Shown: in pieces, positions 4,293 to 60,765 of the stretch
Numbering within the stretch: the first letter of the stretch is position 1
Layout: each line of letters begins with the position of its first letter
Assembly (NCBI GenBank): GCA_017552435.1
Contig: JAFZPZ010000113.1
Coordinates: 1 to 62,727 of the forward strand
Direction: 5' to 3'
Origin: Bacteroidaceae bacterium
GTDB lineage: Bacteria > Bacteroidota > Bacteroidia > Bacteroidales > Bacteroidaceae
Length of the DNA: 62,727 nt
Translations under genes and position numbers: made by a program
Notes under the pieces: generated by a model
What the model saw: only the letters and a program-made list of their open reading frames with translations
The model's database searches: none
What the model was told of the DNA's origin: nothing

Positions 4293-4327
4293 ATCAATTG
4301 TCAATTATAAATCATCAATTATAAACT
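4293..4327 (+). repeat. Heptamer array between pheT and yebC
   Basis: Five consecutive heptamers (atcaatt, gtcaatt, ataaatc, atcaatt, ataaact) fill the whole gap from just after the pheT stop to the next ATG. The phase is strictly 7 bp and no Shine-Dalgarno sequence is present. Confidence 0.8.
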
Positions 4328-5068
4328 ATGGGAAGAGCATTTGAATACCGTAAAGCTACAAAGCTGAAGAGATGGGGCCACATGGCCAAGACATTCACCC
4401 GCCTGGGCAAGCAGATTGCCATTGCTGTGAAGGCAGGAGGTCCGGAACCCGAGAACAACCCCGCATTGCGTAGTGTTATCGCCGTCTGCAAGCGCGAGAA
4501 CATGCCAAAGGACAACATCGAACGTGCCATCAAGAACGCGATGGGTAAGGACCAGAGCGACTACAAGAGCGTGACTTACGAAGGATACGGCCCTCACGGA
4601 ATCGCCGTCTTTGTGGATACCCTGACCGACAACACGACCCGCACTGTTGCCGACGTTCGCAGCGTCTTCAACAAGTTCTCCGGCAACATGGGTACGACTG
4701 GTTCCTTGGCATTCCTTTTTGACCACAAGTGTGTCTTTACCTTCAAGAAGAAGGACGGCATGGACATGGACGAATTCATCCTGGACATGATTGACTGCGG
4801 TGTGGAGGAAGAGTACGACGAGGAGTACGACGAGGAAAAGGACGTGACCACCATCACCATCTATGGCGAGCCAACCAGCTTCAATGTTATTCAGAAGAAA
4901 CTCGAGGCAGACGGTTTCGAGGATGTCGGCGGTGAGTTCACCTACATCCCCAACGACGTGAAGGACGTGACACCCGAGCAGCGTGAGACCATCAACAAGA
5001 TGGTGGAGAAGCTCGAGGAGTTCGACGACGTCCAGACCGTTTATACTAATATGAAGCCCGAGGAATAA
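4328..5068 (+). CDS. YebC/PmpR/TACO1-family protein
   Basis: The 246-residue protein starts MGRAFEYRKATKLKRWG, the Bacteroidetes form of the family, and keeps the conserved ITVAVK-like and NPALRSVIA segments and the ENMPKDNIERAI motif. Members have been described as DNA-binding regulators (PmpR) and as translation factors that relieve ribosome stalling, so the biochemical role here is open. An acidic run (EEEYDEEYDEEKD, about 158-170) sits between the second and third domains. It is separated from pheT only by a heptamer array and is probably co-transcribed. Confidence 0.93.
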   Translation: MGRAFEYRKATKLKRWGHMAKTFTRLGKQIAIAVKAGGPEPENNPALRSVIAVCKRENMPKDNIERAIKNAMGKDQSDYKSVTYEGYGPHGIAVFVDTLTDNTTRTVADVRSVFNKFSGNMGTTGSLAFLFDHKCVFTFKKKDGMDMDEFILDMIDCGVEEEYDEEYDEEKDVTTITIYGEPTSFNVIQKKLEADGFEDVGGEFTYIPNDVKDVTPEQRETINKMVEKLEEFDDVQTVYTNMKPEE

Positions 5069-5088
5069 GCGAGGGCAGAACCAAATTT

Positions 5089-5126
5089 ATGGGGCTTATA
5101 GGGCTAATATGCCTTATAAGCCCCAT
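5089..5126. terminator. Terminator hairpin between yebC-family gene and dnaB
   Basis: A 12-bp perfect stem (ATGGGGCTTATA at 5089-5100 with TATAAGCCCCAT at 5115-5126) lies between two convergent genes. A third related arm (GCCTTATAAAGCCCC, 5138-5152) follows. The position suggests termination in both directions. Confidence 0.75.
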
Positions 5127-5160
5127 ATGATTTATGAGCCTTATAAAGCCCCTATATTAT

Positions 5161-6732
5161 TCAGAATTGGTCTTCCTGGGGCGCGCTTTTTAAATCGGCA
5201 AATGGATCGTCGGCTCCGATTGCGTTGGCCAGGCGATCATTTTCCTCCATCTCTTCTGCCGTCATCTTTGGCGAGACGAAGCGTCCACCCATATCGCTTT
5301 CCTGCGTGCCAGGCAGGGGAATAGAGGACTCGATATCCGAGAAGCGGGCAAACTCGCTGCGGAATGCCAACTTGATGTCACCTACGGAACCGTTACGGTG
5401 TTTTGCTATGATGAACATCGCTTTCCCATGCCAATCGTAGCCTTTGTCGTCTACGAACAACTTATAGTATTCAGGACGATGAATAAAGCAAACGATGTCG
5501 GCATCCTGCTCGATGGCACCCGATTCACGCAAGTCACTCAGAACGGGTTGTTTCCCCTCGAATCCTTCACGGCTCTCCACACCACGGTTCAACTGGCTCA
5601 GGGCAATGACGGGGATGTTGAGTTCCTTGGCAAGCCCCTTCAAAGCACGACTCACAGCACTCACCTCTTCCTGACGGTTATTGGTGGTCAGACCGCTGGC
5701 AACCATCAGTTGCAGATAGTCTATCATGATGGCCTTAACGCCATGTTCGCGCACTAGCCGTCGAGCTTTTGTCCGTAGCTCGAAGACGCTGAGTGCAGGC
5801 GTGTCGTCAATGTATATAGGAGCATTATAGAGCTGGCGTACGCGTTTGTCGAGCTGTCCCCATTCGTAGGGTGCCAACTGTCCGCTACGCAGCTTTTCGC
5901 CACTCAACTCGCTGACGTTAATCATGAGACGCTGCACAAGTTGCTGGTTGCTCATCTCAAGGCTGAACATAGCACAAGGAATCTTGTTATCTACCGCCAT
6001 ACGTTTTATCATGGAGAGTGCAAAGGCAGTTTTACCCATTGAGGGACGAGCCGCAATAATGATGAGGTCGCTGTTCTGCCAGCCGTTCGTAATCTTGTCG
6101 AGTTCGCGGAAGCCAGATGGAAGACCGCTGAGGCCGCCTTCTTTTGCTTGAGCTTTCTGAATGAGTTCGATAACCTGGCCGATGATTGGGTCAATCTGCG
6201 TGAAGTCTTTTTTCAGGTTCTTCTGCGAGATGGAGAAGAGCATTCCCTCTGTCTCTTGCATTAGGTCGGCCACATCGATTGTGGCATCGAAGGCTTTTGT
6301 CTGTACGATGCTGGCAAAGGTGATGAGCTGTCGTTGCAGGGACTTCTGCGCAATAATCTTAGCGTGATATTCGATGTGGGCAGAGCTGGCAACCTGAGCA
6401 TTGATTTGCATCAGATAGACTTCACCGCCGGATGCTTCGAGATTGTCGGTGGACTTGAGCTGCTCTATGACAGTCATGATATCAACAGGCTTTTGCTCGG
6501 CATTGAGTGTCTGAATAGCCTGATAGATGAGCTGATGGCGATGGTCGTAGAAACTCTCAGGCCTGAGCAGTTCTGCCACCAAACCATATGAGTCTTGTTC
6601 TACCATCAGTGCACCCAGTACAGCCACCTCCATGTCGAGGCTTTGTGGCTGTTTATGTCCATATTGGTCAACCTGAGGCACTTCCACAATCTTTGTTGTG
6701 TTAGAGCTTCTTCTTCCTGTTGTTCCTGCCAT
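5161..6732 (-). CDS. dnaB: Replicative DNA helicase DnaB
   Basis: This is the hexameric replication-fork helicase. The N-terminal primase-interacting domain contains AVLGALMVEQDSYG. The RecA-like C-terminal domain holds Walker A (ARPSMGKTAF), Walker B (KAIMIDYLQLM) and the arginine-finger region (SREGFEGKQPVLSDLRESG). No intein is present. The frame remains open further upstream to 6831, but the promoter -7 box (6757-6764) places the start at the ATG at 6732, giving 523 residues, the normal family length. Unlike many bacteria it is not in the rplI operon. Confidence 0.97.
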   Translation of the reverse strand: MAGTTGRRSSNTTKIVEVPQVDQYGHKQPQSLDMEVAVLGALMVEQDSYGLVAELLRPESFYDHRHQLIYQAIQTLNAEQKPVDIMTVIEQLKSTDNLEASGGEVYLMQINAQVASSAHIEYHAKIIAQKSLQRQLITFASIVQTKAFDATIDVADLMQETEGMLFSISQKNLKKDFTQIDPIIGQVIELIQKAQAKEGGLSGLPSGFRELDKITNGWQNSDLIIIAARPSMGKTAFALSMIKRMAVDNKIPCAMFSLEMSNQQLVQRLMINVSELSGEKLRSGQLAPYEWGQLDKRVRQLYNAPIYIDDTPALSVFELRTKARRLVREHGVKAIMIDYLQLMVASGLTTNNRQEEVSAVSRALKGLAKELNIPVIALSQLNRGVESREGFEGKQPVLSDLRESGAIEQDADIVCFIHRPEYYKLFVDDKGYDWHGKAMFIIAKHRNGSVGDIKLAFRSEFARFSDIESSIPLPGTQESDMGGRFVSPKMTAEEMEENDRLANAIGADDPFADLKSAPQEDQF

Positions 6733-6756
6733 ATCTTGTTTCTTTATTTTGCGCAA

Positions 6757-6764
6757 CAAAGTTA
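6757..6764 (-). promoter_or_regulatory. dnaB promoter -7 box
   Basis: TAACTTTG on the minus strand matches the Bacteroidetes -7 consensus. It lies about 25 bp before the ATG at 6732 and excludes more upstream starts. Confidence 0.65.
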
Positions 6765-6812
6765 CGAAGAATAATTCATAATTATTACTGTTGAGCAAAA
6801 AATCATAAAACA

Positions 6813-6849
6813 GCAATCCCCGAGGACACATTTGTGCCTCGGGGATTGC
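6813..6849 (-). terminator. Terminator after the small peptide gene
   Basis: A 13-bp perfect stem (6813-6825 with 6837-6849) is followed on the minus strand by a T-rich tail (around 6790-6812). It closes the transcript of the two genes at 6872-10868 and insulates dnaB. Confidence 0.8.
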
Positions 6850-6871
6850 CTATAAGAGTTAGAGCAGATGT

Positions 6872-7027
6872 TTATTCTGCGTTCCAGATATCCCAGGATT
6901 TGTCTTCCTTGGTGAGGGCGTCGCCACCATCAACCGGATCGTCGCTAATTGCCAGGCTTTCGGCCAGCATCTGAGCGGCCATAGCCTCTTCTACCTTCAA
7001 GGCAGGAATTAAATACATCTTCTTCAT
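6872..7027 (-). CDS. 51-residue small acidic protein
   Basis: The start codon lies one base downstream of the stop of the large repeat protein, so the two are translationally linked. The peptide begins MKKMYLIPALKVEEAMA and ends with an acidic, tryptophan-containing tail (KEDKSWDIWNAE). A central acidic/glycine segment (SDDPVDGGDALTKE) divides the two parts. It has no signal peptide or membrane segment. From memory, short proteins with a basic MKKxYxxP head and an acid/Trp tail recur in Prevotella and are rarely annotated, but no function is established. A frame extending upstream (to 7114) overlaps the previous gene and is unlikely to be the start. Confidence 0.7.
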   Translation of the reverse strand: MKKMYLIPALKVEEAMAAQMLAESLAISDDPVDGGDALTKEDKSWDIWNAE

Positions 7028-7028
7028 A

Positions 7029-10000
7029 TTACTTAAGAATTTTCTTACCGTTAATAATGTTGATGCCCTTCTGCATCTTGTTGATGCGCTGACCTGCGAG
7101 GTTGTAGATTGCACCGTTCTCGACAGTCTTCTCTACATTAGCAATGCCAGTAGCTTCGCCAATAGCTTCGTCTTCTGCGAAGATGAATCCCTTGACGCCA
7201 GCAGCACTCTCGAGATAAGCCTTACCTGCCTGGATTGTACCAGTGGTAGCCTTGAAGAAGCCAACCTTATCCTCAACCTGAGCCAGAACATACTTGCCAG
7301 CAGCCTCAATATCCTCAGCAGCCCCCTTCAGGACATTGCCTTCGATATTCTCGGCAGCACCACTTGCAGCACTATAATATACAACCATGCTCTTGATGCG
7401 GACTTGGGTAGAGGTTTCATTGCTGAGTGTCACAGTTGTAGCCTCACCTTCCCATGTGGTGGTAGTTGTATTGTATTCGCCAGTGTCGAATGTGGGCGTG
7501 CAATTAGCAGAGAATGTAAACACAATTTTAGTGATAGCTGCACCACCTGCATAGATGCTTACAGAATTGCCTTTGTAGACACGAGCAGTACCACCACTAG
7601 CAGCGTAGAATGCTGGAGGATTGTTACCATCATTTTGCTGGAAGTTAAGATCAATATTTTCTACGCAAACCGTAGCAGTTGTGAGGTCATATGCATTTTC
7701 GAAGCCCAGATCGCTGAAAACTATGTTCACGTTCTCCGTGGCAGAGGCAGCAGGCTTGAAGGCATAGTAGCCAGCATCGCCCTTCAGCACTACAGGCTCC
7801 CAAGCGGGAACTGTACCCTCTACGGGATTGAGCTTCAACCATGATTCCTCGTATTCGCCTGTGAATACCTCAACGCCAGCGGGAATATTCACAGCATCGG
7901 GAATGTACATGGTAGCATAGCCAGCTTCGGTAATCTCCTTCATGACAGCGTGAGTCTGATCAAATACAGGATGTGCATCCTCACCGACATTCTGACGGAA
8001 GGCAACAGTACCCAGCTTAGCGCAGAGAGCACCGTTTGCAACTTCCTGAGCTGTAATGAGGTTGGTCTTGTCCTTGGAGTGATCATCGCCATATTGCTGA
8101 CCTTCGATGCCTTCAATATCTACCTCGTAGCAGTTGATAACAGAAGTCTGGCCGCGAGTGAAGGAACCGGTGCCGTAGATACCTTCCAATGTGGCAGTGC
8201 TCCAACAGTTCTTAACAACAGAGTTTGCATTTGACCAAGAGCAGATAGTAGCAGATTCACGAGCACCTTTGACTGCTCCCGTTACGTAGCAATTGGTGAT
8301 GTACAGCGTTGCGGAGCCACCCATGTCAACACCAAGGATGCCAGATGAGTTCTGTGCAGAACCTGTTACAGTACCTTCGTTACCCAAGTTTGAAAGATAT
8401 ACACTACCACCGCCATTGGTGCCACCAACGATACCGCAGAATGCACCGCCGCTGATAGAGCAAGAGCTGTCGAGAACAAAGTTCTTGATAACGGCACCGC
8501 CTCCGATAACACCAAACAGACCCTGATAGTCGCTGGTACTTGTGATAATCAGATTCTTGATAACGTGACCTTGACCGTCGAACTCACCAACGAACAAGCT
8601 AGCTTGTGTACCAATAGGCATGAAGCGAGTCATGTTGCCGTCCATGTTGATGTCGGCAGTCAGACGTGCCTTGACGGTAGGATACTTGGTTGCATAGTTG
8701 CTCCACCATGCGAGCTGTGCGCCATTGCCGATTTCGTACCAGCCATCGACAGGCGTCAGGAAGTCTTCCTGGAGGGTGCCGCAGACAGTACACCAGCCAT
8801 TCACATTCGTGTGGTCAGGAATGTTGGCACCGGCTTCTGAATTGGAATATGCTACATCATCACCCAGAGGTGTACCGTCGCAGCGGTATTCAGAAGCAAC
8901 ACAGTAAACAAGTGCACCTTCCTTCTTGAAAGGCATAGGCTCTGGGTCTGTGCCAATCAATTGATAGAAACGGTCGAGACCACTCTCCTTGCCATTCAGC
9001 AAGAATGCGAGTTCACCATTGGCTATACCATCTACATTCTCATAGTGGATATATTTGTCGGAGTCACCAACGGAATTACCCTTAATGGGATTTACAACAT
9101 AGCAATTCTCGGAGACTACGTTGCCATAGTTACGGGAGAGGTTGCCGGAGTTTTCTGTATCGTTATCCAAAGTCTGGTCGCCAGCACCGATGAAGTTACC
9201 GAGAACGGCACAATTGGTGAAGTACGTCTTTGTTGCAGCCCAGCCGCTGAAGCCACCAACACGTGCACATCTTGCACCACCGTCTGCACCTGGCAGCGTG
9301 AAGGTACCTGCATAGATACAGTTCTCTACTCTCTTTTCCTTGTCACCCATCCAGCCGCAGAAACCACCGGAGGTGTTGTCGCCTGCTACGGAGGAAGTGA
9401 TGTTAATGTCGGAATAGACGTTGCGGATCAAAGCCATACGACCATTTGCAGCGATGGAGCCAGCGCGTGTTCCGCTTGTTGTAATCGAACCGTGCATAAT
9501 GACGTTCTCGAAGTTACCAGTCATCTCGGGAATGAAGGCTGCATGTTCGCCTACATTGACCAGCTCGATGGTCAGGGTGTGACCTTGACCGTCGAAGTTA
9601 CCGTCCACCCAGTTGCTGGTGTTGAAGATGAACTGGCCTTCAGGAGCTTTGACTTCAATGTCATCAGCCATCTTCATGTTCAGTTTGAAGCCGTCACCGA
9701 TACGGTTCCAACCTTCTGCCAAATAGATGTCGTCTGCACTCTTGAGAAGGATGGCATTGTCTGCAACGTCAAACTCGAAGCCACCGAAGTTGAAGCAACC
9801 GCAAGCGGTACAGATGCCATACTTGTCGAATGTGTGTGCTGTGGTTATCGCATTGGTTGGGATGTTACTATAAGCAAGTGCCTCAGTAGAGGTTCCCTTA
9901 CAGTCGGTAGCACCAGTGGCATAAACAGCATTCTCAAGGCTACCAAATGCAACGGGAACGGGGAATGGATCACCACCTTCACCAAGTTTCTGAACCCAGT

Positions 10001-10868: not shown

Positions 10869-10943
10869 AGATTGTTTAATTTGGTTAATAAATAAGGTTT
10901 GTAAATCTATATCAATATCTATGTTTTTGGCACATATCTGCAG

Positions 10944-10951
10944 CAAAGATA
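10944..10951 (-). promoter_or_regulatory. Promoter -7 box of the secreted repeat protein
   Basis: TATCTTTG on the minus strand matches the -7 consensus. The 5' untranslated region would be about 70 nt. No well-spaced -33 TTTG was found. Confidence 0.55.
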
Positions 10952-11073
10952 CACATTATTTTTTTAATTATTCATATTCAAACAAAAAAAAGATTAAATT
11001 TTGTAAAAAATATATGTGTAAGATTGTAATTTATACAAAAAAAGTACACCTAAACCATAGCCTTGGATAGACC

Positions 11074-12147
11074 TTATTCCATTACGTCTTTGGTTCCGCC
11101 AGTTGTTTGGAAGAAGGTGACTTGGGTATTAGTTTTCTTGTCGAAGAGTGTGCTGGAGAGTATCTCTACAATACCGAACTGTGCCATCGGAGTTTCCATG
11201 TTGACGTATTCCTGACTATTGTATGTGATGTTTATCTTTGCTCGTACAGGAATGTTGTAGTAAACGCCGTGCTCCATCTTGGCACGCTTTTTTGCTGTTT
11301 CTTCCGAGGGAACTGTTGTTGGGATGGTCTCCATTACCTTTAGAGATATGATAACGGGCTCGCCAGCCAGGTTGTCTGCGTCCAACACGCCGAGTTTCTG
11401 CGAGAAACGGAAGAGAACGTCACGGTCAGTTTCCTGTTGCGGGTCATAAAAGAAAGAGAACACTTCTGTGTCGATTTGCGAAGTGCCGCTAAAGAGTGAC
11501 TCCAGGACGGAAGCCTGTTTGTCGAGTTGATCGAGCATGAGCTTGAGTTGTGCACCGTCCTTGGGCGTATTCTCTGCCTCGCCTCGGATGAGGGCATTCT
11601 TGCTCTCGCGGATGTCGTAGATTTCCTGAGCACAAAGTTCCGCCATCTTTGCGGAACTTCCAGCAGCAAGAATCTCCTGTGTCATATAAGAACGGGGATT
11701 CTCGGGAGCCTGCCCCTTTTCTGGCTTGGGGAGGTCGGGTAGGAATGATTCGTCTGCATCGCAGTTGATACTGAGTAGGATGCCATCGCGGCTCAGGCCG
11801 ACGAGTGGTGCCACGGTCTTGCTCTTTATTTTGATACTGTAGGCCTTGTCCTTGTCGGGTTTGCCGAAGGGTTCCATTGTAATGCTTTTCAGGTTCCACT
11901 GTACGCTCTCTTCTGTTGGTACATTTTGCAGACGCAAATATCGGTCGGCATATTTGTGGAAATCTCCGGGACGGATGGTCGTCTTTTCTGCAATGACGGT
12001 AACCCGGAAAGCAGTGCGCGGAAGGTAATAGGCAACACCTTCAAGAGTGCTGCCAGGAACGAAACGTTCTACTTCTGTCTGTGCTGTCGCTGTCAGGGAC
12101 AGCGCGGAAAAGAGAATAGGGATTAGAGAATAGAGATGTGTTTTCAT
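11074..12147 (-). CDS. DUF4831 family protein
   Basis: A secreted or periplasmic protein of 357 residues, with a signal peptide (MKTHLYSLIPILF... ending TATAQ). The body carries the DUF4831 pattern: GVAYYLPRTAFRVTV followed by RPGDFHKYADRYL. Its function is unknown. The codons of the signal peptide are partly made of a heptamer array (12113-12140). A small basic-protein gene lies directly upstream with a gap that consists of heptamers, so the two are probably co-transcribed. Confidence 0.85.
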   Translation of the reverse strand: MKTHLYSLIPILFSALSLTATAQTEVERFVPGSTLEGVAYYLPRTAFRVTVIAEKTTIRPGDFHKYADRYLRLQNVPTEESVQWNLKSITMEPFGKPDKDKAYSIKIKSKTVAPLVGLSRDGILLSINCDADESFLPDLPKPEKGQAPENPRSYMTQEILAAGSSAKMAELCAQEIYDIRESKNALIRGEAENTPKDGAQLKLMLDQLDKQASVLESLFSGTSQIDTEVFSFFYDPQQETDRDVLFRFSQKLGVLDADNLAGEPVIISLKVMETIPTTVPSEETAKKRAKMEHGVYYNIPVRAKINITYNSQEYVNMETPMAQFGIVEILSSTLFDKKTNTQVTFFQTTGGTKDVME

Positions 12148-12175
12148 TCTTAATTCTTAACTCTTAATTTTTAAT
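12148..12175 (-). repeat. Heptamer array before DUF4831 gene
   Basis: Four heptamers in phase (tcttaat, tcttaac, tcttaat, ttttaat) fill the gap between the upstream stop codon and this gene's ATG. A related array continues within the gene at 12113-12140. Confidence 0.8.
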
Positions 12176-12378
12176 TATTTGTGTCTGTTCGCGCGTTGAC
12201 GGCGGATGTCAGCCTTCTTCTTGGCTGCACCACTGCTGTGAGCGCCAGTGATGTATTGTTTCTTCTTCGCCTTAGTCTTGATCTTAGGCTCATCTTTCTT
12301 GGGCCCACCTTTGCCGCCACCTCGGAAAGTAATACCTTCCATGATAACGGCATCGATATCGTCTCCTCCGAACTTCAT
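12175..12378 (-). CDS. Small basic protein of unknown function
   Basis: A 67-residue protein starting MKFGGDDIDAVIM, followed by a Gly-rich turn (RGGGKGG) and a strongly basic tail rich in Lys and Arg (KTKAKKKQ, KKKADIRRQRANRHK). It has no signal peptide or membrane segment. The basic tail suggests nucleic-acid contact, which is only an inference. A frame is open to 12429, but the upstream part is encoded by a heptamer array, so the ATG at 12378 is preferred. The family was not recognised. Confidence 0.6.
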   Translation of the reverse strand: MKFGGDDIDAVIMEGITFRGGGKGGPKKDEPKIKTKAKKKQYITGAHSSGAAKKKADIRRQRANRHK

Positions 12379-12381
12379 GTT

Positions 12382-12416
12382 ATTGAATATTGAGCATTGA
12401 ACATTGAACATTGAGA
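12382..12416 (-). repeat. Heptamer array before small basic protein
   Basis: Five heptamers in phase (attgaat, attgagc, attgaac, attgaac, attgaga). The reverse complement of the attgaac type also appears inside a glycosyltransferase gene at 58917-58937. Confidence 0.8.
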
Positions 12417-12433
12417 GTTCATTCTTCACTTAT

Positions 12434-13621: not shown

Positions 13622-13651
13622 GTTGTGTTATTATTTTTGTTATATCGCGTA

Positions 13652-13682
13652 CAAAGGTACGATATTTAATTCAAAATTCAAA
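13652..13682 (-). promoter_or_regulatory. Promoter of the AICAR formyltransferase gene
   Basis: On the minus strand, -33 TTTG (13679-13682) and -7 TACCTTTG (13652-13659) are separated by 19 bp. The -33 element lies within a heptamer array (aattcaa repeats, 13668-13700). Confidence 0.7.
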
Positions 13683-13718
13683 ATTAAGTAATTCAAAATT
13701 CTTTTGAGAGGGGACTTT

Positions 13719-15128: not shown

Positions 15129-15133
15129 AATAT

Positions 15134-15967: not shown

Positions 15968-15978
15968 CTGCCCTTAGC

Positions 15979-16006
15979 TTTTAATTTTTAATTCTTCACT
16001 CCTCAC
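15979..16006 (-). repeat. Heptamer array between zinc-ribbon gene and SGNH gene
   Basis: Four heptamers in phase (ttttaat, ttttaat, tcttcac, tcctcac). Two repeat families are joined here without losing the 7-bp phase. Confidence 0.8.
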
Positions 16007-17130
16007 TTAGTTATATTCATCCTCACGATTTTCTGCTCCTGGTTTATCAGGGCGGTTATGCGGTATTGGTTGGATGTGGGTTGGTTCGTGTCGCTACGGC
16101 TGATGGTTTCCTGCAGGCCCACTTCCACAGCAAAGCCCGTGTTTCCGTCGGGAAGGGTCTCTTTCCGGACACCCATCTGTTGCCCGATGATGTAGTGCAG
16201 CCCTATAACATCTTTCGCCATTTTCTCTCGGGCATATTGGACGATTGCTTCTGCGTTGGCGTTCTGTTTGCCGCAGAAATTCACCATCGTGTCGGGAATG
16301 GCCTGTCGTGCAGCCTCGATATCCTGATTGGCAATGGCTTTGGAGAAGAATGCTTCGAGTGTCCCGCGAATCATGGTGCGTTCGGCGGGAGTCACCTTTG
16401 CCAACAACATAGCGTTCTTTTTCTCGGCGGCTTCATTCACGTAGAGGCCCGACGGATGCTTGGAAAGATAATCTGTGATGGCTTCCTCGCTGCCGATAGC
16501 CTGTGCATCGTGCCAGTCGATGGAGTCGAGTATGTCTTCGCAGATCCGCTGACGGAGGGAGCCCGGGTGGTTCTGCAAGAAGCGCGCTACGGTTGCGCGG
16601 TTGATGCCCTGTTGCAGTTGCTGCCAATCTTTTGCTTCGACCTGAAGCTTGAGCATTCGGTCGTGTATCTCGTCGTAGTGCTTGCTTTCGGGGTAATCGT
16701 TGAGGAATTGCTGGTAGAATTCAGGGTTGGTGATGCTGGCAAGCCGCTTGTATTCAGCCAACTCCTTCTTCAGCTTTTCCTGTTTTTGGTACTGGAAAAC
16801 ACATATACCGATCAGACAGAAGAGAAACAGGGAAAAGACGGCCTTTACCAGATAACCGACTATCGCCATTTTTGATGATGCTGGTTCTGGAGTTTCCTTC
16901 TGGTTTTCTTCTACGACGGGGGTGTCCGATGTTTGACTTTGGCACTCCTCTGAAGTGGGAGCGGGGATGGGACTCTTGCATTCAGGACATTCCTCTTGGG
17001 TCACAAGGTAATAGCCGCCGCAGTTGGGGCATGTGCGGAGCTGACCGGAGATTCTTGTGCCGCAGTTGGGACAGGTGCCGGCCATCGTGGAAACCTGGCT
17101 CCTGCATTCGGGACATTTGATGATGCTCAT
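16003..17130 (-). CDS. Zinc-ribbon membrane protein
   Basis: The 375-residue protein begins with three consecutive CxxC pairs forming zinc-ribbon knuckles (CPECRSQVS..CPNCGTRIS, CPNCGGYY..CPECKSP; residues 5-55). A Pro/Glu/Ser-rich linker and one membrane helix follow (about 95-117). The rest (120-375) is a large, mostly helical extracytoplasmic part with a possible TPR-like region and a C-terminal alpha/beta segment. Function is unknown; zinc-ribbon plus single helix proteins often act as membrane scaffolds. The ATG at 17130 is preferred to a GTG at 17163 because the latter lies in a hairpin. Confidence 0.75.
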   Translation of the reverse strand: MSIIKCPECRSQVSTMAGTCPNCGTRISGQLRTCPNCGGYYLVTQEECPECKSPIPAPTSEECQSQTSDTPVVEENQKETPEPASSKMAIVGYLVKAVFSLFLFCLIGICVFQYQKQEKLKKELAEYKRLASITNPEFYQQFLNDYPESKHYDEIHDRMLKLQVEAKDWQQLQQGINRATVARFLQNHPGSLRQRICEDILDSIDWHDAQAIGSEEAITDYLSKHPSGLYVNEAAEKKNAMLLAKVTPAERTMIRGTLEAFFSKAIANQDIEAARQAIPDTMVNFCGKQNANAEAIVQYAREKMAKDVIGLHYIIGQQMGVRKETLPDGNTGFAVEVGLQETISRSDTNQPTSNQYRITALINQEQKIVRMNITK

Positions 17131-22346: not shown

Positions 22347-22374
22347 AACTATGAACTATGAATTATGAACTATG
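22347..22374 (-). repeat. Heptamer array between pta and ackA
   Basis: Four heptamers in phase (aactatg, aactatg, aattatg, aactatg), directly before the ackA start. The same family occurs at 42143-42163 before an ABC ATPase gene. Confidence 0.8.
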
Positions 22375-22377
22375 AAT

Positions 22378-29863: not shown

Positions 29864-29912
29864 TCTTAACTCTTAATTCTAAATTGTCAATTATCAATTG
29901 TCAATTGTCAAT
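29864..29912 (-). repeat. Seven-unit heptamer array of mixed families
   Basis: Seven phased heptamers: tcttaac, tcttaat, tctaaat, tgtcaat, tatcaat, tgtcaat, tgtcaat. Two sequence families follow each other without a phase break. All share the degenerate pattern T-N-T-N-A-A-Y. The array lies between the permease start and the end of the binding-protein gene. Confidence 0.85.
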
Positions 29913-31052
29913 TCTTTAAAATACTTGTATTCTGGCTCCACTCCCAGTTCCGGATGCAGGATGGCGATGAGGTTCTCCAGCAGGCGTTCCGGATGGAAAG
30001 GCGTTTCCTCGTAGAGCAGGCTGACGGAGGTGTCGCACCACCAAATGGGGGCTTTGATGCTTGCAAGGAGCGGCGTGTCGGAAATCATCTGCTGGCGGTC
30101 CAGCTTGCCGTGGTGTTTGATGAGCCAGATATCGGCATCGACAGCCTTGTCTATCACCTTTTCTGTACTGAGCGGGATGCCTCCATTGCCTTGGAGATGA
30201 GCAAAGAGATAGTCCGCCCCAGCATCGGCATAGAGCTTTGTGGAGGAACTTCCCGAGCCAGGCAGCGTCCATTGTCCGCTCCATGGCATCTCGGGCAGAA
30301 GGCGCGGCTTTGTCTTTGTGTTCTGAACTTTAGCGCACAGCTCCAGGTATCGTTTCTCTACGGCACTAAAGATGCTGTCTGCTTCGGCTGCTTTGCCAAA
30401 GAGACGGCCATAGAAATGTATCCATTCTGCACGTCCCAGCGGCGTGTTCTCCATGTAGTCGGCACACCAAATGATAGGGATGCCGAGTCTCTCTATTCGT
30501 CCCAGCCCGCCGCTGTTCTCGAAGGGACTCGGCAGTAAGGCATCGGGGTTCAGGTTGATGATCTGTTCTATGTTGGGCTGCATACTGTTGCCCAGATTGG
30601 CGATGCGCCCCTCGGCAACACCTTCCTTGTATTCAGGGAGGTTAAAGAACTCCAGATCGCAGATGCCGCCCACCGCATCATCTGCCCCCAGTTCGTGTAG
30701 CAGGGCACAATGCACACTTCCAAAGACCGCAGCATTATGGAGAGGAACCTGAACGAGTGAAGAGTGAAGAATTATTAGTTCCATTTTTCTCTTTGAGTTT
30801 TTTACTTTGAATAAGGCTGTACTTCGCCAACACTCCTGTTGTGTCCCAGGGGTTGCGCATTGTCACCTCTGTGTGGTCGGGATAGGTCACAATGGTCAGG
30901 TTCTTTGCGTAGCGGAGACAGAGTGTGTCGCCCGTTTCGGAGAGTCCGCGAGAGCTGTTCCCGTTACATGAAAGCAACAGGAGCGAAAGAAGTATATATA
31001 ATATAATAATGTGTGGTTGCTCTCGCATTGCGGTGGAAAAATTATTCTTCAT
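29894..31052 (-). pseudogene. Frameshifted ABC substrate-binding lipoprotein (BtuF/FepB type)
   Basis: Two overlapping frames together make one binding protein. The upstream frame (31052-30735) carries a lipoprotein signal (lipobox LLSC) and the N-terminal segment YAKNLTIVTY...MRNPWDTTGVLAKYSLI. The downstream frame (about 30784-29894) carries the rest: VQVPLHNAAVFGSVHCALLHELGA, GICDLEF, LNPDALLPSPFENSGG, and the C-terminal lobe. The switch needs a +1 step somewhere in about 30755-30790, where three heptamers (30755-30775) are embedded. As read, no single polypeptide has both signal and binding domain. Alternatives are a sequencing error, programmed frameshifting, or re-initiation at an ATG at 30784 giving a signal-less protein. 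Neighbours encode the permease and ATPase. Confidence 0.75.
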
Positions 31053-32364: not shown

Positions 32365-32370
32365 TTTGTG

Positions 32371-32427
32371 GGATTAGGGATTAGAGATTAGGGATTAGAG
32401 AGTAACTCTTCATTCTTCACTTTTCAC
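32371..32427 (-). repeat. Heptamer arrays between ssb and gldE
   Basis: Units ggattag, ggattag, agattag, ggattag (32371-32398), then tcttcat, tcttcac, ttttcac (32407-32427) running into the end of ssb. The two blocks are separated by 8 bp. Confidence 0.75.
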
Positions 32428-33784: not shown

Positions 33785-34098
33785 TTCGGCGCACCGCCGA
33801 AACCTTCGCGAGAAGAAAATCCCATGTTCGGCGCACCGCCGAAACCTTCCCGAGAAGAAAATCTCACCTTCGGCGCACCACCGAAACCTTCCCGAGAAGA
33901 AAATCCCATGTTCGGCGCACCGCCGAAACCTTCCCGTGGAGAAAATCCCATGTTCGGCGCACCGCCGAAACCTTCCCGTGAAGAAAATCTCACCTTCGGC
34001 GCACCGCCGAAACCTTCCCGAGAAGAAAATCTCATGTTCGGCGCACCGCCGAAACCTTCGCGAGAAGAAAATCCCACTTTCGGCGCACCGCCGAAACC
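33785..34098. repeat. 42-bp palindromic tandem repeat, 7.5 units
   Basis: Units start at exactly 42-bp steps: 33785, 33827, 33869, 33911, 33953, 33995, 34037 and a final partial unit at 34079. Each unit opens with TTCGGCGCACCGCCGAAACC, a 7-bp-stem hairpin (TTCGGCG/CGCCGAA) with a 3-nt loop, then a purine-rich spacer with a few variable positions (CCCATG or CTCACC; CGCGAG, CCCGAG or CCCGTG). One unit has a loop-side change (CACCACCG). Because 42 is divisible by 3, several frames are open on both strands, but none has a start signal or family resemblance. Confidence 0.9.
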
Positions 34099-36661: not shown

Positions 36662-36710
36662 ATTATTGTTTGGTCGTTTGGGGAATTAGTCGTTTGGTCG
36701 TTTAGGGAAG

Positions 36711-44613: not shown

Positions 44614-45248
44614 CTCATGTCATTTTTTAGTACATCCGGATAATCTTTTTCCGGAAAGTTGAAGAAATCGTCGCTTAACTGGAGGTTGCCCTTGAAACTG
44701 AGGATGCTGACGCGCTGCCAATCGTTATCTTCGCGGACTCGGATGCAGAGGGGTTGGTAGTCACTCTTGCGGATGTCGACATATACCTCTTTAACATCCA
44801 TCTTGGCGTAGCGTGCCTTGAGATAGACTTCATAGACCGCTTCGTCGCGCAACACAGTCTCTTTGACAGTCATCTTGAACCCCTTTTTGTAGATACCCAT
44901 AAAAGTATAAGGATTTATCGCTGCCATTTCTTTTCGGGAAGGCTCATCAATGTTCACTTCGTTGCTCACAGGAACAAAGCACCATCGGGTTTTGCCGTTA
45001 TACCATGTAGTTATGTCTTCGGTCTCGAGTTTCATCTTGCTTTCCTGTAGCCACATGGTGCCAGTAGAGGACGCTTTTTCTGTCGCTCCGGCAAAGATAC
45101 TTGCTTTATACTCTATTTTCACATTGCCTGCTTTGCGGATGTGATCGGCAGTAATGTCGAGTATCTTCATGGCATCCTGGGCGAATGAAAAATGAAGAAA
45201 TGAAGAAATGAAGAAATGAAGAAAAAATAGAAAGGTTATACGTTTCAT
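44610..45248 (-). CDS. LolA-like outer-membrane lipoprotein carrier
   Basis: A 212-residue periplasmic protein of the LolA/LppX fold, expected to ferry lipoproteins to the outer membrane. The mature part has TADHIRKAGNVKIEYKAS, GTMWLQESKMKLET, TTWYNGKTRWCFVP and INPYTFMGIYKKGFK. The signal peptide is odd: its hydrophobic Phe/His/Ser core is encoded by four perfect 8-bp repeats (45192-45223). Since 8 is not a multiple of 3, gain or loss of one copy would shift the frame near codon 9-19. The gene follows ftsK. Confidence 0.88.
   Translation of the reverse strand: MKRITFLFFLHFFISSFLHFSFAQDAMKILDITADHIRKAGNVKIEYKASIFAGATEKASSTGTMWLQESKMKLETEDITTWYNGKTRWCFVPVSNEVNIDEPSRKEMAAINPYTFMGIYKKGFKMTVKETVLRDEAVYEVYLKARYAKMDVKEVYVDIRKSDYQPLCIRVREDNDWQRVSILSFKGNLQLSDDFFNFPEKDYPDVLKNDMR
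45192..45223 (-). repeat. Four 8-bp repeats in the lolA-like signal peptide
   Basis: Four perfect copies of atgaagaa (plus-strand reading) within the 5' coding region. Related but imperfect 7-bp units precede them at about 45184-45191. Confidence 0.85.
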
Positions 45249-47957: not shown

Positions 47958-47981
47958 CACAAAATTAATAAAAATGTGCAA

Positions 47982-49676: not shown

Positions 49677-49705
49677 TGAAAGGACGTTATGTCCGGTGGA
49701 TTTTT

Positions 49706-52072: not shown

Positions 52073-52093
52073 GTGTGGTTTAAAGTTAAATGT

Positions 52094-53017: not shown

Positions 53018-53044
53018 TCTTGTCTCTTGTTGAAATTTATTGCA

Positions 53045-53082
53045 CAAAATTACATAAAACTCCGCTAAAATGTTTAACTTTG
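53045..53082. promoter_or_regulatory. Divergent promoters of GSCFA gene and dxs
   Basis: A minus-strand -7 TAATTTTG (53045-53052) and a plus-strand -7 TAACTTTG (53075-53082) lie 22 bp apart. Their outer flanks are near-symmetrical (TGCACAAA and TTTGCACA), so polymerase binding at one should interfere with the other. Confidence 0.65.
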
Positions 53083-53104
53083 CACATAAAAATTCTAATT
53101 AAGT

Positions 53105-56364: not shown

Positions 56365-56437
56365 AAAGAGTGTTCTTATGTTAGAAACGAGCACACGATA
56401 ATATTTTGATTTAATTCCTAAATTCCAAATAAAGATA

Positions 56438-57799
56438 ATGTCTCAAAAACCAAGTATACCAAAAGGCACACGCGATTTCGGACCTCAGGAAATGTCGCGT
56501 CGCAATTACATCTTCAATACCATTCGCGAAGTCTATTCCCTCTATGGGTTCCAGCAGATAGAGACGCCGGCGATGGAGAATCTATCCACCCTGATGGGAA
56601 AGTACGGCGAGGAGGGCGACAAACTGCTCTTCAAGATACTGAATAGCGGGGATTTCCTGCGTGGTATCTCTGCGGAAGACCTTCAGAATGGTGCTACAGG
56701 CCACCTCGCAGCTCAACTTTGTGAGAAGGGCCTCAGATACGATTTGACTGTCCCCTTCGCCCGTTATGTGGTGCAGCATCGTGAGGAGCTGACGTTGCCT
56801 TTCCGACGCTATCAGATCCAGCCCGTATGGCGTGCCGACCGTCCGCAGAAAGGCCGCTACCGCGAGTTCTATCAATGCGATGCTGATGTGGTGGGAAGTG
56901 ACTCGCTGCTCTGTGAGGTGGAGTTGATGCAGATTATCGACGAAGTGTTCCGACGCTTTGGTATCCGCGTCTGCATCAAGATTAACAACCGCAAGATTCT
57001 CTCCGGAATTGCCGAGATGATTGGCGAGGCCGACAAGATTGTGGATATTACGGTTGCTATCGACAAGCTCGACAAGATTGGCCTGGATGCTGTGAACGAG
57101 GAACTTCGCGAGGACGGCATCAGCGAGGAAGCCATCCAGAAGCTCCAGCCCATCATCAACCTCAGCGGTACAAACGAAGAGAAGATTGCCACAATGCGAC
57201 AGGTACTTGCCGGCAGCGAGATAGGGCAAAAGGGTATCGACGAGGTGGAGTATGTGCTGAATCAATTGTCAATTGTCAATTGTCAATTAGAGTTGGACCT
57301 GACCCTTGCCCGTGGCCTCAATTACTATACCGGCTGCATCTTCGAGGTGAAGGCGCTGGATGTAGAGATTGGCTCCATCACCGGCGGCGGACGCTACGAC
57401 AACCTGACTGGTATCTTCGGTATGCCTGGTTTGAGTGGGGTAGGGATCAGCTTCGGAGCAGACCGTATCTATGATGTCCTGAACCAGCTCGACCTCTATC
57501 CCGAGGCTGTGACGACTGCCACTCAGGTGCTTTTCATCAACTTCGGAGAGAAGGAGACGGCCTATTCGCTACCCATTCTTGCCAGCCTTCGCCAGCAGGG
57601 TATCCGTTGCGAGATCTACCCCGATGCCAGCAAGATGAAGAAGCAGATGCAGTACGCCAACCAGAAGGGCATTCCCTTCGTCATCATGACAGGCGAAACA
57701 GAAATGGCGGAAGGGAAGGTAATGCTCAAGAATATGACAACTGGCGAACAGAAATTGCTAACGCCAGACACTTTGGTGTATTCAATTCAAAATAACTAA
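56438..57799 (+). CDS. hisS: Histidine--tRNA ligase
   Basis: Charges tRNA-His. The 453-residue class II synthetase has motif 1 ([14 protein letters not shown]), motif 2 ([26 protein letters not shown], about 127-152), the histidine motifs [10 protein letters not shown] (about 288-297) and GGGRYDNL (about 315-322), and a C-terminal anticodon domain. Just before the first histidine motif, codons for about [11 protein letters not shown] are a tandem heptamer array (57262-57288) of the same sequence as intergenic arrays; it keeps the reading frame. The last codons also run into a heptamer-like region. Confidence 0.96.
57262..57288 (+). repeat. In-frame heptamer array in hisS
   Basis: Three copies of TCAATTG plus TCAATT. 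Three 7-bp units equal seven codons, so the frame is kept. Confidence 0.88.
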
Positions 57800-57816
57800 A
57801 TTCAAAATTCAAAAAG

Positions 57817-57834
57817 CCTCCCCTTATGGGGAGG
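57817..57834. repeat. GC-rich palindrome between hisS and methyltransferase gene
   Basis: CCTCCCC and GGGGAGG with a 4-nt loop, followed by a ttgggaggggt tail reaching nearly to the ATG at 57849. Same core as the terminator at 21074-21104, but without the T-run, so read-through is likely. Confidence 0.7.
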
Positions 57835-57848
57835 TTGGGAGGGGTCCG

Positions 57849-58577
57849 ATGCTTCCTGCTTTATACTTGATTCCCGTTACGCTTGGCGAGACACCAATAG
57901 AACAAGTCTTGCCTTCCTATAACCATGAGGTTATCATGGGCATCCGCCACTTCATCGTGGAGGAAATCCGCTCCGCAAGACGATTCCTGAGAAAGACGGA
58001 CCGCGAGTTCCCCATTGATGACTGCACCTTCTATGAGATGGGTAAACACGCAGACGAGAAGCAGTTCAGCGCGTACTTGCAGCCGCTTCGCGAGGGGAAA
58101 CCTGTGGGAGTAATCAGCGAAGCCGGTTGTCCTGCTGTTGCCGACCCGGGTGCCGACATCGTCCGGATTGCCCAGCGGGAAGGCCTTCGGGTGGTGCCTC
58201 TGGTAGGACCGAACAGTATGATTATGGCAGTAATGAGCAGCGGCTTGGGTGGGCAGAGTTTCGCCTTCAACGGCTATCTTCCTGTCGAGCCCTCCGATCG
58301 TGCCAAACGCCTGAAAGCTCTCGAGTCAAGGGCTTGGACAGAAGGACAGACACAGCTCTTCATAGAAACGCCTTTCCGCAATCAGAAGATGTTCCAGTCA
58401 CTCCTCAGCACCCTTCGTCCGCAGACACGCCTCTGCATCGCTGCAGGCATCACAACCGCCGACGAATACATCCGCACCCTTCGCATCTCGGAATGGAAGA
58501 AAGAAGAACTCCCCCTAAAGGGGGCTGGGGGGGCTGACCTGAGCAAAGTGCCCGCCATCTTCCTGATTAACAAATAG
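57849..58577 (+). CDS. SAM-dependent methyltransferase (RsmI/tetrapyrrole methylase fold)
   Basis: A 242-residue protein with the tetrapyrrole-methylase fold of RsmI, which 2'-O-methylates 16S rRNA. Family segments are YLIPVTLGETPIEQVLP, VGVISEAGCPAVADPGADIV (about 96-115), VGPNSMIMAVMSSGLGGQSFAFNGYLP and QLFIETPFRNQKM. It is shorter and more divergent than E. coli RsmI, so the exact target is uncertain. Near the C-terminus the residues LPLKGAGGA are encoded by the GC-rich repeat CCCCCTAAAGGGGG (58512-58525). Confidence 0.85.
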   Translation: MLPALYLIPVTLGETPIEQVLPSYNHEVIMGIRHFIVEEIRSARRFLRKTDREFPIDDCTFYEMGKHADEKQFSAYLQPLREGKPVGVISEAGCPAVADPGADIVRIAQREGLRVVPLVGPNSMIMAVMSSGLGGQSFAFNGYLPVEPSDRAKRLKALESRAWTEGQTQLFIETPFRNQKMFQSLLSTLRPQTRLCIAAGITTADEYIRTLRISEWKKEELPLKGAGGADLSKVPAIFLINK

Positions 58578-58580
58578 AAT

Positions 58581-58608
58581 TATCAATTGTCAATTATCAA
58601 TTATCAAT
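58581..58608 (+). repeat. Heptamer array before glycosyltransferase gene
   Basis: Four phased heptamers (tatcaat, tgtcaat, tatcaat, tatcaat) fill the gap between a stop codon and the TTG start. Confidence 0.8.
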
Positions 58609-58609
58609 T

Positions 58610-59746
58610 TTGAAGTATTCCATCATAGTTCCCGTATATAACCGCCCGGACGAGGTGGATGAGCTGCTCCAGAGCCTCACACAGCAGACGTTCAAGGATA
58701 TGGAGGTCATTATCGTGGAGGACGGTTCCAGCCGTTCCAGCGAGGCTGTTGTGCACAAGTATGCCGGCAAGTTGCAGCTCCGCTACTATACGAAGGAGAA
58801 CAGCGGTCCCGGGCCCACGCGCAATTTTGGTGCTGAGCACAGTCAGGGCGAGTTTCTCATCTTCCTCGACAGCGATTGCGTCCTGCCTCCAGGTTACCTG
58901 CAAGCCGTCGAAGACGAATGTTCAATGTTCAATGTTCTTCCCTACGGTCAGGCGCAGGCGGAGCAATGTTCAATGGGAATCGACGCTTGGGGCGGTCCCG
59001 ACCGTGCTCACGAGAGCTTCACGCCAGTTCAGAAGGCCATCAGCTACAGCATGACTTCATTCCTGACGACTGGTGGCATCCGGGGCGGCAAGAAACAGAT
59101 GGACAAGCGGTTCTATCCACGTTCCTTCAATCTGGGCATTCGCCGCAGTCTCTACAGGCAGTTGGGCGGTTTCTCTTCGATGCGTTTTGGCGAGGACATC
59201 GACCTGAGCATCCGCATCTATGAGAGCGGAGCCAGTTGCCGCCTCTTCCCTGAAGCATGGGTCTGGCACAAGCGCAGGACTGACTTCCGGAAGTTCTTCA
59301 AGCAGGTACACAACAGCGGCATCGCCCGCATCAACTTGATGAAGCGGCATCCGGGCAGTCTGAAGCTCGTACATCTGCTGCCCGCAGTTTTCACTATCGG
59401 AGTTTTCCTGCTGCTTCTCCTGCTGCTGACGGGACTGTTTTTCACGGGTCTTGGCCTTTACGTAGGCTTCTTCGGTGGAAGTGGTTGCAACATGGGACTT
59501 GTGGTTGCCTTCTTCGGAGCCGCATTGATGGCACTTGCCCTGCTGCCGCTTCTGCTCTTCTCGCTGATTGTCTTCATAGACAGCGCCATTCGGAACAAGA
59601 GCATGAAGATAGGCTTCCTCTCTATCTGGGCAAGTTTCATCCAGCTCATCGGCTACGGAACGGGCTTCCTTCGCGCCTGGTGGTTGCGCTGCGTCTGCGG
59701 CAGAAACGAGGAATTGCAAGCGTTCAAAAATAGCTTCTATAAATAG
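58610..59746 (+). CDS. Glycosyltransferase family 2 membrane protein
   Basis: A 378-residue inverting glycosyltransferase with a GT-A domain: YSIIVPVYNRPDEVDELL, a DxD-type FLDSDCVLPPGY (about 83-94) and GEDIDLSIRIYESG (about 193). The C-terminal third has three hydrophobic helices (about 250-340). It probably adds sugars to a lipid-linked envelope glycan. The start codon is TTG at 58610, giving the usual N-terminus. Codons around 103-125 contain two heptamer arrays (58917-58937 and 58965-58975), adding ECSMFNVL and EQCSMG segments foreign to the family. Confidence 0.9.
   Translation: MKYSIIVPVYNRPDEVDELLQSLTQQTFKDMEVIIVEDGSSRSSEAVVHKYAGKLQLRYYTKENSGPGPTRNFGAEHSQGEFLIFLDSDCVLPPGYLQAVEDECSMFNVLPYGQAQAEQCSMGIDAWGGPDRAHESFTPVQKAISYSMTSFLTTGGIRGGKKQMDKRFYPRSFNLGIRRSLYRQLGGFSSMRFGEDIDLSIRIYESGASCRLFPEAWVWHKRRTDFRKFFKQVHNSGIARINLMKRHPGSLKLVHLLPAVFTIGVFLLLLLLLTGLFFTGLGLYVGFFGGSGCNMGLVVAFFGAALMALALLPLLLFSLIVFIDSAIRNKSMKIGFLSIWASFIQLIGYGTGFLRAWWLRCVCGRNEELQAFKNSFYK
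58917..58937 (+). repeat. In-frame heptamer array in glycosyltransferase
   Basis: Three perfect copies of AATGTTC (21 bp, seven codons). Another partial array follows at 58965-58975. Confidence 0.85.
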
Positions 59747-59749
59747 AAA

Positions 59750-60430
59750 ATGGAGAGCATTAAGACCTGGGCATTAGATGATAGGCCGCGCGAGAAGATG
59801 GAAGCGCATGGTGCCGGTGTGCTGAGCAATGCAGAACTGCTGGCCATTCTGGTGGGTAGCGGCGTGCCCGGCAAGAGTGCCGTAGAGATGATGCGCGAGA
59901 TACTGAACGACTATAACGACAGCCTGAAACTCCTGGGCAAGGCCACCATAGAGGACCTGACCCGCTACAAGGGTATGGGAAAGGCCAAGGCCATCACCGT
60001 GCTGGCTGCCTGTCAGCTCGCCAACCAGCGGCTGAAGGAAGAGCTGCCACAGCGCTTGCATATCGCCAGTTCTGCAGATATTTTCGAATACTTCCGTCCG
60101 CGTATGCAAGACCTTACCATCGAGGAATGTCACCTGCTTTTGCTCGACCAGGGGATGACCGTCAAAGGCTCTGTCCTCCTGAGCCGAGGCGGTATAGCGG
60201 GTGCTTCGGTCGATGTGCGTTGCCTGTTGCGGCACGCGCTTCTGGGCCAGGCCACTTCCGTCGTGCTTTGCCACAATCATCCCAGCGGACGCACCAATCC
60301 CAGCCGCGAGGATGACAACCTCACACAACAGGCTGCCGAAGCATGCAAGGTCGTTGGCATCCGGTTCATCGACCACGTCATCTTCGCAGGCAATGACTAT
60401 TACAGTTATTTAGAAAATGGAAAACTCTGA
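59750..60430 (+). CDS. radC: RadC family JAB-domain protein
   Basis: A 226-residue protein with an N-terminal helix-hairpin-helix region (about 30-95) and a JAB/MPN domain with the metal motif HNHPSGRTNPSREDD (about 175-189). Named DNA-repair protein RadC, but the repair role is doubted; the JAMM motif suggests hydrolase activity. It begins 3 bp after the glycosyltransferase gene and overlaps the next gene by 14 bp. Confidence 0.94.
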   Translation: MESIKTWALDDRPREKMEAHGAGVLSNAELLAILVGSGVPGKSAVEMMREILNDYNDSLKLLGKATIEDLTRYKGMGKAKAITVLAACQLANQRLKEELPQRLHIASSADIFEYFRPRMQDLTIEECHLLLLDQGMTVKGSVLLSRGGIAGASVDVRCLLRHALLGQATSVVLCHNHPSGRTNPSREDDNLTQQAAEACKVVGIRFIDHVIFAGNDYYSYLENGKL

Positions 60431-60737
60431 ATTGGATATGCAGGAGCGGGTTATCGAGGTACTCAAGACCGTCTTCGACCCGGAGATACCCGTCAATATA
60501 TACGACCTCGGGCTCATCTATCGCATCGAGCTCAGCGAGGGCAATACCGTGCTGGATGTCGATATGACCCTGACGGCACCCAACTGCCCCGCTGCCGACT
60601 TCATCGTCGAGGATGTGCGGCAGAAGCTGGAAAACATCATCGGCATCGAAAAGGTGCAGGTCAACCTCGTCTTCGAGCCGGAATGGGACAAGGAAATGAT
60701 GAGCGAAGAGGCAAAAATGGAGCTAGGGTTCCTGTAA
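60417..60737 (+). CDS. DUF59 / MIP18-family iron-sulfur assembly protein
   Basis: A 106-residue protein of the DUF59 family, helping iron-sulfur cluster assembly or transfer. It contains the typical VFDPEIPVNIYDLGLIY segment (about 15-31) and MTLTAPNCPAADFI (about 50-63) with the conserved reactive Cys. The ATG lies in the 3' end of radC. Confidence 0.93.
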   Translation: MENSELDMQERVIEVLKTVFDPEIPVNIYDLGLIYRIELSEGNTVLDVDMTLTAPNCPAADFIVEDVRQKLENIIGIEKVQVNLVFEPEWDKEMMSEEAKMELGFL

Positions 60738-60765
60738 CCATTGACCATTGACCATTGAACATTGA
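60738..60765 (+). repeat. Heptamer array before lpxH-like gene
   Basis: Four heptamers (ccattga, ccattga, ccattga, acattga) start immediately after a stop codon and end 3 bp before the next ATG. Confidence 0.82.

Follow-up and report, generated by a model that had tools for sequence, protein, structure and literature searches.

Tandem heptamers lie between genes in cyanobacteria too, where they are known as short tandemly repeated repetitive (STRR) sequences; their unit family differs from those treated here, and we know of no link between them and a gene cassette. Here we describe arrays of phased heptanucleotides in a 62,727-nucleotide stretch from a Bacteroidaceae bacterium (the window; contig JAFZPZ010000113.1 of assembly GCA_017552435.1), and their relation to small cassettes that encode TIGR02436-family, S23-like proteins. 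The closest description of heptamer arrays that we found in print is that of the TAACTGA direct repeats of Beggiatoaceae, cyanobacteria and five Bacteroidetes (MacGregor 2015, PMC4679880). In the accessible portion of that report these are likewise short arrays, mostly intergenic and often near start codons, and in Bacteroidetes the relatives with shorter gaps lack the repeats (PMC4679880). The BOGUAY genome rarely repeats related heptamers, whereas here 28 canonical units occur across 73 arrays, and the same portion of the report describes no open reading frame (ORF) cassette linked to TAACTGA (PMC4679880).

The cassettes themselves recall the intervening sequences (IVSs) of 23S rRNA in Coxiella, Leptospira, Salmonella and others, with which they share a TIGR02436-family protein and terminal inverted repeats that would pair into a stem of ~28 bp. 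As described in the accessible part of one account, the Coxiella IVS is 428 nt long, has terminal inverted repeats that form a 28-bp stem and carries an S23p ORF; RNase III cleaves IVSs, and an old suggestion held that the ORF served mobility (PMC4990558). An IVS sits in a 23S rRNA helix, whereas the cassettes inspected here sit between protein genes; here, moreover, the arms are tandem 7- or 8-mers that vary by cassette, and solo arrays are abundant. In the literature that we searched on S23, IVS and four-helix-bundle proteins, no title or abstract opening that came up ties them to heptamer arrays, subscription journals being mostly outside coverage. Avd, from diversity-generating retroelements, is a related small four-helix-bundle protein, but 97 of the 139 genomes (incomplete drafts) in our genus comparison have no match to the reverse transcriptase family RVT_1, several array-rich ones among them, and this genome has one. 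Miniature inverted-repeat transposable elements and repetitive extragenic palindromes (REPs) are ORF-less inverted-repeat derivatives present in many copies; they differ from the present system in that here no transposase was identified, no target-site duplication was seen and the family has no conserved arm sequence.

Our data show that the period-7 arrays are a real feature of this genome. We sampled the window and 20 further stretches, together 426,164 bp or 12% of the 3.50 Mb draft genome, and scored lagged self-matches. At score 12, 73 lag-7 arrays were found against 0 at lag 6, 9 at lag 8 and 5 at lag 9, with harmonics at lags 14 and 21 and 14 segments at lag 22; five order-3 Markov copies of the intergenic pool held zero lag-7 arrays. 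The phased heptamers described in the sequence-only reading are confirmed. A stricter tract rule gave 65 lag-7 tracts in the sample, against 1, 0 and 0 in whole-sample order-3 Markov copies; in the window alone it gave 10 at lag 7, 0 at lag 6 and 1 at lag 8, and zero lag-7 tracts in each of ten order-1 Markov copies. Arrays occupy 43 of the 186 complete gaps of at least 30 bp, and we estimate ~600 arrays in the whole genome (73 in 12%). The pattern TCAATTN has 94 matches genome-wide and its reversal 0. Relatives were reached through hisS and are mostly gut and rumen Bacteroidales, both metagenome-assembled genomes (MAGs) and isolates; 80 such hisS loci gave 65 segments at lag 7, 5 at lag 6 and 11 at lag 8. 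Since one of the loci with an array (L069) comes from an isolate, Prevotella bivia, the arrays are not merely MAG artefacts. Many Bacteroidales also show an excess at lag 22, with 42 segments at the 80 loci.

The pheT-yebC gap, which holds an array in the window, contains in another genome (G134) a small ORF flanked by inverted heptamer arrays, and this ORF encodes a TIGR02436 member. The genome under study has three full-length TIGR02436 genes (E 6e-37 to 2e-27) and one weak partial match (L455); the best solved match of one of these proteins is 2gsc_A (XCC0516; E 4.5e-14). Each of the three full-length genes is bracketed by inverted tandem arrays, whose units are GATTAAG, TAAATGA and, as an 8-mer, GGTCGTTT. 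Across the genus, inverted tandem arms flank 48 of 62 testable TIGR02436 genes (18/22 in a first test and 30/40 in a second), a count that treats orthologous cassettes separately, so that the events are not independent. Only 2 of 291 control genes of this genome have such arms, one of them itself a TIGR02436 gene; this control came out the same under the slightly wider limits of the second test. The first test dropped 11 of 33 given loci, eight cut by contig ends and three lacking an ORF, and the partial gene never entered it; a cruder arm test was positive at 19 of 23 loci, 11 of 34 being unlocated by motif.

The cassettes measure 416-641 bp in total, with short spacers, and over 22 loci the ORF has 116-136 codons. 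The arm units differ from cassette to cassette: 15 of the second set of 30 have 7-mers and 15 have 8-mers, and the first set includes one 12-mer. Arms built of 7-bp units are 27-34 bp long on the 5' side in 21 of 24 cases and on the 3' side in 16 of 24, and in 42 of 45 cassettes G outnumbers C in the 5' arm. An RNA fold of one cassette predicts a stem that closes the ORF (z = -4.8). The two cassettes whose surroundings were inspected, that of G134 between pheT and yebC and L454 of this genome, sit between protein ORFs. Among 52 cassettes we found 80 pairs with alignable interiors, 70 with matching flanks and 10 without (no flank match of 60 bp). The arm unit is the same in 55 of the 70 and different in 15 (for example GATTAAA against GGATTAG, and AGTGGTT against AGGAGCA), with both arms altered together, each cassette having been preselected for an inverted pair. 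Five of the ten pairs lacking matching flanks also have their arm unit in common; arms carried with the cassette are therefore favoured over arms captured from solo arrays at the target, an origin that we considered and disfavour.

Presence of the family and presence of arrays go together across genomes. An array of RTGAAGA units occurs in 0 of 13 genomes without a TIGR02436 match and in 65 of 126 with one, and the number of four-unit RTGAAGA matches correlates with the number of TIGR02436 matches (Spearman 0.44 over the 139 genomes). For stretches around yebC, from genomes picked by their TIGR02436 match count, we found one array in 148,273 bp of ten TIGR02436-free genomes and 20 in 192,273 bp of ten genomes with at least six matches (rate test, 0.0002). 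Four of those 20 arrays lie within 250 bp of a family gene, and the remaining 16 still give p = 0.001. The TIGR02436-free genomes do not form one clade: the yebC tree requires six changes, at least four of them forced by well-supported branches. In the phylum at large, 88 of 118 genomes have a TIGR02436 match.

Solo arrays resemble cassette arms in units, length and polarity. Of the 71 solo arrays of this genome, 27 have at least 20 bp in common with an arm found elsewhere than in this genome, where five controls with positions permuted inside the units gave 0-4, and three solo arrays, including the one at 58578-58609 of the window, match an arm over 32 bp. The arms also resemble the solo arrays of this genome in length. 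At score 8, its 135 lag-7 segments comprise 44 of 15-20 bp, 26 of 21-27 bp, 54 of 28-34 bp and 11 longer, against ~19, ~4 and ~2 at control lags in the first three bins. Arrays no more than 700 bp apart are inverted with like units in 15 of 65 pairs, where 3.7 (5.7%) are expected, and direct with like units in 12 of 65, some of them split arrays, again with 5.7% expected; some of these pairs stand at cassettes, and two species each contribute the hisS site. Of the inverted pairs less than 200 bp apart, 11 of 13 have the G-rich array first, two are ties and none is reversed, in a set where L037 and L157 represent a single hisS site from two species and where L170 and L181 come from cassette sites. 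L037 and L158 are apparently one contig, and one of the two was entered per count.

The commonest of the 28 units is used seven times. TGA/TCA, the triplet whose over-representation is clearest, occurs in 17 of the 28, where permuting letters predicts 8, and in 24 of 47 units from other species, where 12.5 are expected. We considered a three-frame stop cassette and rejected it: 72 of 73 arrays contain a stop on one strand or the other, but so do 90% of letter-permuted units, TAA is not over-represented and there is no coding-strand preference. A single master copy spreading unchanged was also rejected, since RTGAAGA haplotypes of many kinds occur among the matches listed and solo arrays are no closer to the arms than to arms with shuffled units.

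The arrays of the window, with the gene that hosts one of them, are as follows, strands being given where assigned.

1536..1554, heptamer array TTTTCAC in a divergent gap
4289..4329, heptamer array in the pheT-yebC gap; in relatives this gap contains a TIGR02436 cassette (G134), an array judged homologous on inspection (G127) or different repeats
12146..12176, heptamer array ATTCTTA where a gene starts; by inspection G013, G012 and G024 show a decayed likeness of it
12381..12414, heptamer array ATTGAAC
15979..16007, mixed heptamer array TTTTAAT / TCTTCAC
22347..22376, heptamer array AACTATG
29864..29913, two families in phase, TCTTAAT then TCAATTN
32370..32398, heptamer array GGGATTA; exact 29-bp match to a cassette arm of another genome
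32407..32431, heptamer array TCTTCAC, starting 8 bp past the preceding array
36668..36705, imperfect 8-bp array GTTTGGTC, 64% matches; by inspection the same kind of unit as in the arms of cassette L452 of this genome
42143..42165, short heptamer array AACTATG, under the scoring threshold of the main list
45190..45224, 8-bp array AAATGAAG; by inspection resembles the arms of cassettes L547 and L550
56438..57799, forward strand, hisS, hosting an in-frame array
57262..57288, forward strand, (TCAATTG)4 in the variable hisS loop; other species have other heptamers in that loop
58578..58609, 32-bp array between a stop and a start codon; matches part of one arm in cassette L546 (G093) letter for letter
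58917..58937, (AATGTTC)3, part of a 45-bp insertion that keeps the frame of a glycosyltransferase gene
60737..60765, heptamer array ACCATTG between a stop and a start codon
61848..61879, imperfect heptamer array TTAAAAA

We take 56438..57799 to be hisS from its own sequence and a motif that we recognised; the variable loop with the array at 57262 stands directly ahead of this motif. All 11 gaps named in the sequence-only reading do contain phased heptamers, those at 4293-4327, 15979-16006 and 61850-61877 being imperfect or mixed; the positions hold, with shifts of a few bases relative to edges found by scoring. Its placement of arrays in intergenic gaps fits 53 of the 73 and misses the 20 that lie mostly within ORFs (ab initio calls), such as those at 57262-57288 and 58917-58937, which it had not listed. 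By inspection we agree that two unit families join in phase at 15979 and 29864. Its stop-to-start placement was also found: the array at 58578-58609 begins 0 bp after a stop and ends 0 bp before a TTG start, and that at 60737-60765 overlaps a stop by 1 bp and ends 3 bp upstream of an ATG.

At fixed sites the arrays come, go and change their units between species. By eye, a lag-7 segment is present in 13 of 56 distinct hisS loops, inside and outside the genus, and its unit differs by species: TCAATTG in this genome, TCTTCAC, CTCTCAA, TCAATGT, AATTCTC and others elsewhere. In G020 and G027 this loop holds an ORF-less inverted pair of GGGGCAA-type arrays, whose arm unit and inner AGAATA/CAATCCTCT resemble cassettes L472 and L474 (by inspection only). 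The array at 58578 is absent from all eight aligned relatives, in six of which stop and start lie 0-2 bp apart, and the nine-way alignment, with relatives only ~73-85% identical, shows no target-site duplication there. The 45-bp insertion at 58917 is absent from seven of eight relatives, the eighth having a 24-bp insertion of its own. In the pheT-yebC gap, G095, G144, G027 and G155 have near-8-bp repeats of the ATAACGAA kind (by inspection). The ATTGAAC array at 12381..12414 was not seen in the seven relatives compared, three of which have inserts of ~480-510 bp at this place that were viewed in part only. Among contigs of the IMG/VR collection, L390 and L399 (93.6% identical) differ by an array swap and L340 and L393 (88%) by presence or absence of an array, and neither pair shows a clean target-site duplication.

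Several other repeats were noticed. Contig L390 (8.4 kb) carries eleven heptamer arrays plus a poly-A run, and at least 120 and at least 114 stretches of IMG/VR contigs match two array patterns. The divergent gaps L012:15724-15755 and L024:2269-2301 have 61 bp in common at 97%, with the array central. The solo arrays of 8-bp units at 36668-36705 and 45190-45224 are of the same kinds as 8-bp cassette arms. GC-rich palindromic modules of the CCTCCCC...GGGGAGG kind adjoin heptamer arrays at 57815-57845 of the window, in G026 (L185) and elsewhere, and, in the parts viewed, such palindromes end the ~480-510-bp inserts of G133, G127 and G013 at the place of window position 12379. The window also contains a 42-bp repeat of 7.5 copies (91% match) overlapping ORFs at 33785-34098, and tandem repeats of 21 and 22 bp near its end (62038-62202).

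These data lead us to favour, as somewhat probable, the view that the arrays represent arms, either single or lacking the ORF, of very small mobile elements akin to IVSs. A complete element consists of an arm of tandem 7- or 8-bp units, an ORF for a TIGR02436/S23-like four-helix-bundle protein and an inverted arm, and its RNA would close as one long stem around the ORF, as predicted for one cassette. From shared units, length, polarity and co-occurrence, ORF-less inverted pairs would be internally deleted forms and solo arrays of 28-34 bp single arms. The element probably moves as a unit and would leave its arms behind when the interior is lost. It would insert where insertion is tolerated, in stop-start spacers and protein loops; presence and absence at such sites is seen, and gain in this genome is the likely direction. 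Orthologous cassettes preselected for an inverted pair suggest that arm sequence drifts while both arms stay complementary, and slippage or conversion may later homogenise the units. A candidate for the mover is the four-helix-bundle protein, perhaps aided by a host nuclease (RNase III, for example) that acts on the stem.

A number of observations weigh against this view. The most serious exception is G034, which has 86 TCAATTN matches and only weak TIGR02436 matches, the best at 3.5e-8; conversely, stretches free of arrays occur in the gene-bearing genomes G012, G024, G016, G019, G035, G155, G103 and G109. When carriers are defined by a best match better than 1e-15, the association weakens to 4 of 22 non-carriers with the RTGAAGA array against 61 of 117 carriers (p = 0.004). 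This genome has three full-length family genes for an estimated ~600 arrays, and outside the genus strict tandem arms flank only 3 of 30 family genes, some inverted repeat (E < 0.001) being present at 14 of 30 loci, often as ragged short repeats. Shuffling unit order still gives 23 matches at 20 bp, against 27, so the order fits arms no better, and it is therefore units and not exact orders that solo arrays share with arms. The length mode is weaker elsewhere (37 segments of 28-34 bp and 33 of 21-27 bp at the 80 Bacteroidales loci, 22 and 14 in a first genus set), and the longest arrays reach 90 bp at those loci and 106 bp in the genus. The ten cassette pairs lacking matching flanks have members in common, and none of the sites inspected showed a target-site duplication.

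Local replication slippage with a preferred 7-bp step, which the sequence-only reading had offered, is a real but rather unlikely alternative; on this account cassettes merely settle in or copy arrays, and the step is the length held by the polymerase. As far as the accessible portion of the source goes, an earlier survey found heptanucleotides to be the top category of 5-11-nt repeats in most genomes and explained them by polymerase contacts (PMC4679880). The predominance of lag 7 at the 80 Bacteroidales loci and the array-bearing genomes with only weak TIGR02436 matches fit slippage. Because units vary across species at one site yet agree within an array, some slippage-like homogenisation is likely, and this part of the proposal stands. 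Free slippage would give a falling length distribution and not the 28-34-bp mode of this genome; nor does slippage predict inverted pairs of fixed polarity, arms at TIGR02436 genes, arms common to related cassettes at different sites, or the near-absence of arrays from the sampled stretches of TIGR02436-free genomes. It also sits poorly with the few unit families in one genome (28 units in 73 arrays) and with the array at 58578, for which no seed is visible in relatives (by inspection).

Two further explanations appear much less probable than slippage. The arrays could be under selection as regulatory sites or as leaders without structure, bound for instance by S1, cold-shock or other RNA-binding proteins, an idea we regard as improbable. 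Many arrays do sit between a stop codon and the start that follows, some adjoin promoter-like boxes (L012:15724 and L024:2269; judged by eye against a consensus), and MacGregor suggested a translational role for TAACTGA in the accessible part of that report (PMC4679880). The leader selection proposed from the sequence is nevertheless unsupported, because arrays also sit in frame within hisS and other ORFs and between divergent genes, and because they show no strand preference: for arrays with stops on one strand in same-strand gaps, the stops are on the coding strand in seven and on the other in nine (by eye). Unit sequence also varies, and presence at the same gene differs between species. 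Like slippage, selection for leaders does not predict the 28-34-bp mode, the fixed polarity of inverted pairs, the arms at TIGR02436 genes or the scarcity of arrays in the stretches sampled from TIGR02436-free genomes. Elsewhere, enzymes such as reverse transcriptases or Y1 transposases spread dispersed short repeats, and a mobile enzyme of this kind (a reverse transcriptase or an IS200/REP-type Y1 transposase) could have spread the arrays with the cassettes as passengers, which we consider likewise improbable. RVT_1 (PF00078) has one match in this genome, but just 42 of the 139 genomes gave any; none came from the incomplete drafts of the array-rich G091, G003 and G016 or from that of G027. 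Y1 transposase matches occur in 62 of 139 genomes, array-rich G091 and G027 included; PF01797 was not found in the incomplete drafts of this genome, G016, G089 and G093.

Returning to the reading as arms of IVS-like elements, it points to a way for short repeats to get into essential proteins. In its widest form, which we put forward only tentatively, a one-gene element with no known transposase, consisting of a four-helix-bundle protein of ~120 residues and self-renewing complementary arms of 7- or 8-mers, may have seeded hundreds of 30-bp solo arms genus-wide, with spacers rewritten and frame-tolerant segments added to HisS and other proteins. That S23/IVS elements are mobile and that tandem repeats in bacteria favour 7 bp are two observations of long standing that still lack an explanation, and they coincide in this genus; as its 139 genomes range from array-rich to apparently array-free, both can be tested there.

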